This document shows positions 25,874 through 62,692 of a stretch of DNA of 64,000 bases, piece by piece. The DNA lies in assembly GCA_018822105.1 (NCBI GenBank), contig JAHJLB010000020.1, forward strand, positions 1-64,000, given 5' to 3'. Both the position numbers and the translations under genes were made by a program. The stretch comes from Pseudomonadota bacterium (GTDB lineage: Bacteria; Desulfobacterota; Desulfovibrionia; Desulfovibrionales; Desulfovibrionaceae). Positions within the stretch are counted from its first letter, which is position 1. Each line of letters starts with the position of its first letter. The notes beneath the pieces are model-generated. The model searched no databases and was not told where the DNA came from. It saw only the letters and a program-made list of their open reading frames with translations.

Positions 25874-26716
25874 CTACCTGCCCTTGGCAGCGCTGGCCCG
25901 CAGAATGTCATAGACGTCTGTCGGCGCGCGCCCGGCAGCCTGGGCGATCTTCTTCAGGGTCATGTCACCCTTGGCCGGGATTCCCCCGGCGGCCAGGGCC
26001 CTGATGCTCGTAGCGAGATCCAGCCCGTGCCTGGCAGAGAAGTCGGCCAGGGTCAGTTGCCCGGTGCCGGAGGGCGCCATGAGGGGCAGCTCGGCGGAAG
26101 CGCCGCCCGCGTCCTTTGCGGCAACGCCACCCTGCATGACCTGGTAAAGCCGCTGGGGCGAAACCTTGTTGCGCTCGGCGATGCTGCCCACGGATTCCTG
26201 ATCGTTCTTGGGCGCCATGCCCGCTGCGCGCAGGTTCTCCATGGCCCTTGGCAGGTCCATGCCGACCTTGGCTGCAAAGGAGGCCAGGGGCGAGAGTTCC
26301 GCGTGGCCGTAGGGCGGCTCGCCGTACATGCGCACGGCCTCGTCCTTGAACCAGGCGTTCAGCTGGAGAAAGTTGGAGAAGGGGGGGAGCGCGGCCAGGG
26401 TGCCGATGCTGAAGACGGTCACCAGCAGGGCGGACCAGAGCAGCTCGGGCGAGAGCCGGAACGATTCGCGCGCTCTGGCCTGCAGATAGTTGGTGATGGC
26501 CTTCCAGTTGAACCAGGCGTGCAGCAACAGGGCGAGCAGGAACAGGGTGCCGAGGTTGATGTGCAGCGCGCCCCACTGTTCCTTGGTCAGGCCCCAGAGC
26601 CGCCAGTCGGCCCAGTAGGCCACCCGTCCGGCGGGCACGATGTAGAGGACAACACTGGTGACAAGCACCAGCGCAAAGGACAAGAGCGCGGTGAGCGAGG
26701 TCAGGCGGCGGAACAT
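25874..26716 (-). CDS. DUF4405-type membrane protein with duplicated C-terminal helical repeat
   Basis: A 280-residue protein with three N-terminal membrane helices (about 8-30, 50-72, 90-112). His residues in ALHINLGTLFLLALLLHAWFN fit a b-heme-binding four-helix-type DUF4405 domain. After a periplasmic segment (about 113-150) come two tandem repeats of about 56 residues, the first starting LSPLASFAAKVGMDLPRAM and the second LTLADFSARHGLDLATSIR. These look like small helical, possibly ligand-sensing, modules. It is transcribed alone from an operator-bearing promoter. A redox role is inferred. Confidence 0.72.
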   Translation of the reverse strand: MFRRLTSLTALLSFALVLVTSVVLYIVPAGRVAYWADWRLWGLTKEQWGALHINLGTLFLLALLLHAWFNWKAITNYLQARARESFRLSPELLWSALLVTVFSIGTLAALPPFSNFLQLNAWFKDEAVRMYGEPPYGHAELSPLASFAAKVGMDLPRAMENLRAAGMAPKNDQESVGSIAERNKVSPQRLYQVMQGGVAAKDAGGASAELPLMAPSGTGQLTLADFSARHGLDLATSIRALAAGGIPAKGDMTLKKIAQAAGRAPTDVYDILRASAAKGR

Positions 26717-26789: not shown

Positions 26790-26818
26790 AATATACCCAT
26801 GGGGGGTATATGTGTCAA
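26790..26818 (-). promoter_or_regulatory. Strong sigma-70 promoter of the DUF4405 gene
   Basis: On the minus strand a perfect TTGACA (complement of 26813-26818) and TATATT (complement of 26790-26795) are separated by 17 bases. This is the best promoter match in the window. The spacer holds most of a palindrome, so repression is expected. The start codon is about 75 bases downstream. Confidence 0.75.
26793..26809. promoter_or_regulatory. Palindromic operator ATACC-N7-GGTAT (copy 1)
   Basis: ATATACCC-N5-GGGTATAT around 26791-26811, with core ATACC-N7-GGTAT. It overlaps the -10 and spacer of the DUF4405 promoter. The same core and spacing recur at 61595-61611 upstream of the YeeE pair. GC-tract pseudo-palindromes of this sort are typical of CsoR/CstR-family repressors. 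Confidence 0.6.
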
Positions 26819-61422: not shown

Positions 61423-61562
61423 GGCGACCTCTGGGAAACAGTGATAAGGTTTCTCGGATTACAGTTACTCTTTGCCCTTATTCTGAGGAAATGGCAAGGC
61501 ATGCGTCGCATAGCTCGGCACGATGCGCAGGCCTGCCCGGGTGGTTCGTCCGGGCCGCAGGC

Positions 61563-61590
61563 TTGACGGCATCCGCAAAGTACGTATTAT
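61563..61590 (+). promoter_or_regulatory. Promoter of the YeeE/YedE selenoprotein operon
   Basis: TTGACG (61563-61568), 16 bases, TATTAT (61585-61590; five of six matches). Transcription should begin near 61597, inside a palindromic operator. Confidence 0.65.
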
Positions 61591-61594
61591 GGTC

Positions 61595-61611
61595 ATACCC
61601 CCATCCGGTAT
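61595..61611. promoter_or_regulatory. Palindromic operator ATACC-N7-GGTAT (copy 2)
   Basis: Core ATACC-N7-GGTAT, extended to CATACC...GGTATG and flanked by TGGTC (61590-61594) and GACCA (61615-61619). It covers the expected transcription start. Same core and spacing as 26793-26809. Confidence 0.6.
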
Positions 61612-61636
61612 GCAGACCATAACAGGAGGATATGTC

Positions 61637-62164
61637 ATGGGCGAAACAGTTCGCGGAAAACCCTGGAATCCGTACATCGCGGGAGCCCTGGCCGGCCTTT
61701 TGCTGGTGCTCTCGGTGTACGCCACGGGCAAGTACTTCGGCGCCTCAACCACCTTCGTCCGCGCCGCGGGCATGATCGAGCAGACCGTGGCCGCCGAGCG
61801 CGTGGCCGCCATGCCCTATTTCATGAAGGAGGCGCCGAAGATCGACTGGCAGTGGATGTTCGTCGCGGGCATCCTCTTGGGCTCCCTTGCGGCCGCCCTC
61901 GGCAGCGGCACCTTCCGCCTCAAGGCCGTGCCGGATCTCTACGCCTCGCGCTTCGGGCCCTCTCCGGGCAAACGCTTCGGCGTGGCCTTCCTGGGCGGCG
62001 CGGTGGCCATGTTCGGGGCGCGCCTCGCCGATGGCTGACCCAGCGGTCATGGGCTGAGCGGTTCGCTTCAGCTGGCTGCGAGTGGTTTTGTGGCCTTGGC
62101 GTGCTTCTTCATCGGCGGGGTCGTGGTGGCGCGACTGCTGTACGGCAACGGCGGGAGGGGCTAG
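61637..62164 (+). CDS. YeeE/YedE (DUF395) half-protein, probable selenoprotein; TGA at 62036-62038 read as Sec
   Basis: Membrane protein of the YeeE/YedE family, which includes thiosulfate (TsuA) and other sulfur- or selenium-compound carriers. Read to the TAG at 62162-62164 it has 175 residues and four helices (about 12-35, 73-92, 112-131, 145-170). An in-frame TGA at residue 134 falls in GARLADG-U-PSGHGLSG, exactly where the family has GC(T/S)SGHGLSG with a functional Cys. The frame after the TGA keeps the family sequence and the last helix, and a hairpin follows. Stopping at 62038 would remove the conserved motif and a helix. ATG 61637 has AGGAGG upstream. Selenocysteine is inferred. Confidence 0.8.
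62036..62073 (+). promoter_or_regulatory. Candidate bacterial SECIS hairpin after the TGA
   Basis: Immediately 3' of TGA (62036-62038) a stem forms: CTGA (62054-62057) with TCAG (62068-62071), a bulged T (62067), then GCG (62058-62060) with CGC (62064-62066), loop GTT (62061-62063). The loop G lies 23 bases past the TGA, near the position of the SelB-bound GU in Escherichia coli fdhF. Codons here end unusually often in T. Confidence 0.55.
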
Positions 62165-62167
62165 GCC

Positions 62168-62692
62168 ATGCAACTCATCTTCGGACTCATCACGGGCATT
62201 TTGTTCGGCATCCTGCTGCAGCGGGCCGAGGTCATCCGCTACGACCGGCAGCTGGGAGCCCTGCTCCTGAAGGACATGACCATCGTCAAGTTCATGCTCT
62301 CCACCATCCTGGTGGGCATGGTCGGCGTGTATCTGCTGGTGGACCTGGACCTGGCCAAGCTGTCCATCAAGCCGCTGATCCTGGGCGGCAACATCCTGGG
62401 CGGGCTGATCTTCGGCGCGGGCTGGGCGCTTTTGGGCTATTGCCCGGGCACGGCGGCCGCGGCCGTGGGCGAGGGGCGCCTGGACGCCCTGGCCGGCCTG
62501 GCCGGGATGCTCCTGGGCGCGGCGGTGTTCGCCGAGGCCTACCCTGCGCTGAAGGCCACGGTGCTCACCTGGGGCGATTTTGGCAAGGTCACCCTGCCCC
62601 AGCTCATGGACCGGCACCACTGGGTGGTCATCCCCTGGTTCGTCGTGCTCGGCGTGGCGCTGCTGCGCTGGCTCCACAAGCGCGGGCTGTAG
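62168..62692 (+). CDS. YeeE/YedE (DUF395) second half-protein
   Basis: A 174-residue membrane protein with about five helices. It carries the second family motif FGAGWALLGYCPGTAAAAVGEG with Cys92, matching the C-terminal half of one-piece YeeE proteins. It begins 3 bases after the stop of the first half with GGGAGGGG ahead. Two half-genes in tandem parallel the PmpA/PmpB arrangement. Together with the Sec residue of its partner, Cys92 probably lines the substrate path. Thiosulfate, persulfide or selenium compounds are possible substrates. Confidence 0.85.
   Translation: MQLIFGLITGILFGILLQRAEVIRYDRQLGALLLKDMTIVKFMLSTILVGMVGVYLLVDLDLAKLSIKPLILGGNILGGLIFGAGWALLGYCPGTAAAAVGEGRLDALAGLAGMLLGAAVFAEAYPALKATVLTWGDFGKVTLPQLMDRHHWVVIPWFVVLGVALLRWLHKRGL

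Follow-up and report, generated by a model that had tools for sequence, protein, structure and literature searches.

We found that a TGA codon at 62036-62038 on the + strand of a 64,000-nucleotide stretch of DNA (hereafter, the window), from a 3.17 Mb draft genome in 63 contigs, is very probably decoded as selenocysteine (Sec) in a subunit of a YeeE/YedE transporter. A first-pass annotation of the window had proposed a Sec residue in a transporter of this family, and the proposal is now supported by an exact alternation of TGA and Cys codons across 180 loci, a covarying hairpin specific to TGA loci, silent-site conservation downstream of the codon, and a complete set of Sec machinery genes. 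The gene concerned (61637-62164, +) follows a ribosome-binding site, AGGAGG, read from the sequence at 61624-61629 (+), and encodes 175 residues with Sec at position 134 (U134) when read through the TGA. As annotated, the codon lies in frame in the context GARLADG-U-PSGHGLSG and is followed by 41 open codons up to a TAG at 62162-62164, 3 bases 5' of the ATG of the next gene. If the ORF from 61637 stopped at the TGA, its product would have the 133 residues stated in the first-pass annotation; ordinary reading to the TGA from an upstream ATG at 61523 gives 171 residues.

We investigated the codon at this position among homologues from 99 relatives, from searches at class level (348 genomes) and at phylum level (395 genomes), and from a named-genome search in which the best 80 of 473 loci were kept. 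Together these gave 228 loci, which reduced to 180 distinct ones. The codon matching 62036-62038 was TGA in 94, TGC in 63, and TGT in 23 of the distinct loci, and no other codon occurred; these proportions reflect uneven sampling, since one search targeted TGA loci and the named-genome search used two seed peptides, one of which contains the Cys. Homologues ending at the same TGA, which would have spoken against Sec, were absent: the frame continued past a Cys or TGA codon in 180 of 180 loci. The first-pass annotation was right that the family has Cys in this column, while the motif it gave, GC(T/S)SGHGLSG, needs correction to GCPSGHGLSG, in which P is replaced by T in 2 of 180 loci. In a 50-row alignment with TGA read as C, C134 was invariant. 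A search of the 99 relatives gave matches in 62, and 50 of the 72 listed matches comprised 15 TGA and 35 Cys forms; of the 92 class-search matches whose E value was below 1e-63, 19 carried one TGA. When the Sec/Cys trait was mapped onto a rapidly built protein tree, for which the trait column had been masked, 22 changes were counted, at least 6 of which were forced by well-supported branches.

The alternation extends to closely related species. In the genus of the window, sister species have TGC, and two other genomes (L010 and L013) have TGA with near-identical downstream sequence. Elsewhere, the genome G131 carries a Sec form (L089) amid close Cys-form sisters of the same genus (L022, L083, L086, L093, and L094), and the hairpin described below is complete only in L089 and not in these sisters, so that this switch is apparently recent. 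In genome G067, a Sec form coexists with a distant Cys paralogue whose motif is GCTSGH (L032 and L061). Cultured carriers of the TGA form include Desulfatitalea alkaliphila and Desulfoprunum benzoelyticum (L165 and L172).

Shortly after the UGA, at 62052-62073 (+), lies a SECIS-like hairpin with a conserved apical GU, in which 62052-62059 pairs with 62065-62073 through 8 base pairs, leaving a bulged T at 62068 and an apical loop GGTTC at 62060-62064. The loop GU falls 23-24 nt past the TGA in a bulged stem-loop, in agreement with the first-pass annotation, which had also noted an excess of T-ending codons after the TGA; we counted 8 in 21, against at most 3 in 21 in any window of the 5' part of the gene or of the partner gene. 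With the T of the TGA numbered 1, the pairs are 17-38, 18-37, 19-36, 20-35, 21-34, 22-32, 23-31, and 24-30, and base 33 is bulged. With each locus scored in whichever register, bulged or unbulged, paired better, all 8 pairs were present in 78 of 94 TGA loci, including that of the window, but in only 4 of 86 Cys loci. Among the 78 complete hairpins, 65 were bulged and 13 formed only without the bulge; in the other 16 TGA loci, the best register fell short of the full 8 by one or two pairs. Pairing was better without the bulge in 20 of 94 TGA loci (L111, L134, L138, L153, L161, L172, L201, L204-L206, L208, L209, L213-L215, and L217-L221); therefore, the family as a whole does not require the bulge. 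Loop U27 was found in 88 of 94 TGA loci vs 11 of 86 Cys loci.

Compensatory variation was evident at individual pairs. Pair 18-37, which joins a third codon base (18) to a first codon base (37), was G-C in 60, A-U in 17, U-A in 5, G-U in 4, and unpaired in 8 TGA loci. Pair 19-36 was C-G in 55, U-A in 30, U-G in 3, and unpaired in 6, with no C-A among TGA loci as against 12 C-A among Cys loci. RNAalifold returned the same hairpin from 42 of the 94 TGA loci, a hand-picked subset in which the bulged type predominates (all 8 bulged pairs form in 38 of the 42). In this subset, three of five measures exceeded the shuffled controls: 98.8% of cells were paired (shuffles, 94.2%) and 22 cells were doubly changed (shuffles, 6.7), both above all 500 shuffles, and the covariation score was 0.200 (shuffles, 0.106), which none of 500 shuffles equaled. 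The other two measures were at the shuffle level: 2 pairs were doubly changed, and 4 further pair types occurred. Synonymous identity at codons +6 to +12 was 0.629 in TGA loci vs 0.364 in Cys loci, whereas it was roughly equal elsewhere (TGA and Cys loci, respectively: upstream, 0.392 and 0.410; +1 to +5, 0.486 and 0.471; +13 to +35, 0.391 and 0.422). This silent-site conservation, confined to TGA loci, distinguishes RNA constraint from protein constraint. The rows compared are related to each other, and an independent-pairs test on the tree, with 6 supported pairs and hence too few for significance, was not significant (median p = 0.5 for the stem and 0.125 for the loop U). An Rfam scan of the region gave no match, and single-sequence folding gave z values from +0.2 to −2.0 over five stretches, at best moderately better than shuffles. 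Folding energy alone is thus weak evidence for the predicted hairpin, whereas the comparative evidence is strong.

The first-pass annotation had held that absence of selB or selC from the genome would contradict a Sec reading; selA (581.5 bits), selB (373.7), selC (tRNA-Sec, 81.9), and selD (323.7) are all present. Other TGA-containing selenoprotein genes in the genome are selD, with one TGA, and two of three full-length FdhA genes, with one TGA each. Among the relatives, a tRNA-Sec match of at least 80 bits was found in 15 of 15 TGA-form genomes and selB above the cut-off in 14 of 15, the fifteenth (G098) having a partial selB match only. Sec machinery alone does not separate the two forms, because it is also widespread in Cys-form relatives: with these included, 92 of the 99 relatives had a tRNA-Sec match and 86 a selB match above the cut-off. 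Conversely, the Cys form occurred in three genomes with no clear Sec machinery, G006, G022, and G036; the first and last of these are incomplete, and G022 gave a single marginal tRNA-Sec match of 47.9 bits.

Ordinary gene calling ends at the TGA, as would be correct if the codon were a true stop and the product either a shortened 133-residue protein or a decaying pseudogene. We consider this very improbable: the 41 codons past the TGA retain the conserved motif of the family, TGA stands at the same codon in 94 distinct loci and TAA or TAG in none, and the complete hairpin is nearly restricted to TGA loci. Still less probable is general readthrough of the UGA or its decoding as tryptophan, given that the alternative residue is only ever Cys and never Trp, that a hairpin accompanies the UGA, and that the genome has a dedicated Sec system. 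The draft state of the genome and the TGC of sister species would suit a sequencing or assembly error for TGC or TGT, but TGA recurs in two other same-genus genomes and 91 further distinct loci, and the downstream silent positions fit the hairpin, which leaves an error the least probable of these explanations. Insertion of Sec at the UGA remains by far our favored reading.

The annotated YeeE/YedE identity was upheld, with one qualification: the gene is only one half of a split transporter, a feature that the first-pass annotation did not note. Against Pfam Sulf_transp (PF04143; cut-off, 27 bits), it scored 83.5 bits when read through and 51.2 when ended at the TGA, and the next gene (62168-62692, +) scored 59.4 bits. 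Because the two genes match profile positions 171-309 and 15-150, respectively, they represent two YeeE/YedE halves in the order C-terminal half (PmpA-type) and then N-terminal half (PmpB-type). This partner was found downstream in all loci having enough sequence (91 of 91 TGA and 86 of 86 Cys loci). In phmmer comparisons with PDB chains, residue 134 aligned with position 293 of Spirochaeta thermophila YeeE, and the cysteine of a GYC motif in the partner aligned with position 91. In the sections of the two reports that treat these residues, C293, C91, and C22 of S. thermophila YeeE are the first, second, and third cysteines (PMC11073785), and Cys91 and Cys293 are indispensable (PMC11582611). 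At the Cys91 column, all 86 partners of Cys loci and 92 of the 93 partners of TGA loci have Cys, the remaining one having a gap; at the Cys22 column, none of these 179 partners does. No YeeD/TusA gene was recognized beside the pair in the ORF list of the window. An AlphaFold2 model of one half alone was of low confidence (pLDDT, 56.8; pTM, 0.33).

Based on these results, we propose that SelB and tRNA-Sec decode the UGA as Sec under the direction of the intragenic hairpin just downstream, and that the resulting C-terminal-half subunit and the product of the next gene would form one pore, presumably as a heterodimer. Sec134, at the Cys293 position, would then be the first residue of a cysteine path, receiving thiosulfate or other sulfane sulfur from outside and handing the sulfur species to Cys91 in the partner; selenium may help both the capture and the release of the sulfur ligand. 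A more specific version is doubtful in our view: the Sec form might capture sulfane sulfur covalently as a selenenylsulfide and exchange it to Cys91 in a redox group-translocation, with Cys forms using the hydrogen-bond relay proposed for thiosulfate. If so, the repeated changes between Sec and Cys in closely related species would be signs of a shifted substrate or redox niche.

The likely substrate is thiosulfate or a different sulfane-sulfur compound. It is not assignable by family membership, because the halves score far under the curated NCBIfam cut-offs both for TsuA (NF052577, 42.3 and 58.2 bits vs 400; NF041049, 37.8 and 32.1 vs 645) and for YedE selenium transporters (TIGR04112, 33.9 vs 200 for the partner; NF033796, 26.0 and 27.5 vs 350). 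Of the 115 loci with long flanks, 11 have a CoA-disulfide-reductase-like ORF near the pair; one representative of this ORF was identified, and its presence may be a hint of sulfane-sulfur chemistry. The transporter could instead move a selenium compound, a reading that leaves Sec decoding intact and competes on substrate only: PMC5322559 connects the YedE (TIGR04112) branch with selenium, and the halves match YedE models weakly. We judge this unlikely, as the highest NCBIfam scores, all far below cut-off, were to a TsuA model, no sel gene was recognized beside the pair in the ORF list of the window, and the Cys form occurs in the three genomes noted above with no clear Sec machinery, two of them incomplete and one with a marginal tRNA-Sec match.

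A sigma-70-like promoter, TTGACG-16-TATTAT, precedes the gene at 61563-61590 (+) with 10 of 12 consensus matches (shuffles, mean 0.2). Just past its −10 box, at 61595-61611 (+), lies an operator-like inverted repeat, ATACCCCCATCCGGTAT, which we take to resemble CsoR/CstR-type repressor sites. Of the 12 loci from the genus, 10, of both Sec and Cys forms, carry its TACC..GGTA pattern upstream of the gene; overall, 11 of 178 loci and 11 of 1862 control windows have it. Across the genome, the pattern gave 5 matches at 4 places (one counted on both strands) vs 3 for a reversed-pattern control, which is not clearly above chance; thus, only the conservation within the genus upstream of the gene counts. 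The single PF02583 repressor match in the genome (L244, contig C36, 20850-21083, − strand) has two cysteines and presumably lacks the copper-site histidine of CsoR, which suggests a CstR-like persulfide sensor. A similar site (L248 position 1501; contig C55, 14700-14716) was seen a few hundred bases 5' of the hand-chosen start of a PhsA-like thiosulfate reductase gene, a placement that may be due to chance. Within the window, another inverted repeat, ATACCCATGGGGGGTAT, occurs at 26793-26809, 77 bases 5' of a DUF4405 gene on the minus strand (25874-26716).

An open-access literature search of titles and abstracts found no further description of a YeeE/YedE or PmpA selenoprotein beyond the family listing discussed below. 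Term searches found neither YeeE nor YedE in the main text of PMC2398784 and PMC5029168, which a review cites for the family, and no mention of selenocysteine in the main texts of PMC13293266 and PMC13047784, which in part treat YeeE/TusA/DsrE ('YTD') gene clusters. According to the abstract of PMC9312934, prokaryotic selenoproteins are mostly believed to act in redox reactions, whereas Sec here would occupy the residue of a membrane transporter that probably receives the substrate. Ordinary gene calling would truncate such genes and conceal their key motif. The natural Sec and Cys forms in close species, in the genus of the window and in G131 and its sisters, offer a test of the role of selenium in transport.

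Bacterial SECIS elements of the Escherichia coli fdhF type are hairpins within the coding region just past the UGA, with an apical GU and a small bulge. The predicted element shares this position, the GU, and the small bulge, but its bulge sits on the 3' side of the stem, and the 20 loci named above pair better without one. S. thermophila YeeE/TsuA (PDB 6LEO and 8J4C) is homologous to the halves and has the C293 and C91 positions in common with them, but it is one fused chain, whereas the pair here is two genes. The S. thermophila protein also has three cysteines including C22 and a YeeD partner, as described in part of PMC11073785, whereas the partner half here lacks Cys22. Closer are the split PmpA/PmpB proteins, in the relevant part of PMC11582611 likewise two short half-proteins, PmpA corresponding to the C-terminal half with Cys293 and PmpB to the N-terminal half with Cys91; the adjacent halves here have the equivalents of both residues, with Sec at the Cys293 position where that account describes cysteine. 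A 'YeeE/YedE thiosulfate transporter, GUxSG' (PF04143, WP_012471001.1) is already listed as a selenoprotein family in PMC13188914 and PMC9312934, of the same Pfam family and with Sec in G-U-x-S-G, here GUPSG; the listings give it with no SECIS, relay-residue mapping, or distribution. Because the family is already in print, the novelty is limited to a well-supported new member of a known predicted selenoprotein family, to which we add a position for the residue in the relay, covariation support for a SECIS, and a count of Sec/Cys switches (at least 6; 22 on the best tree).
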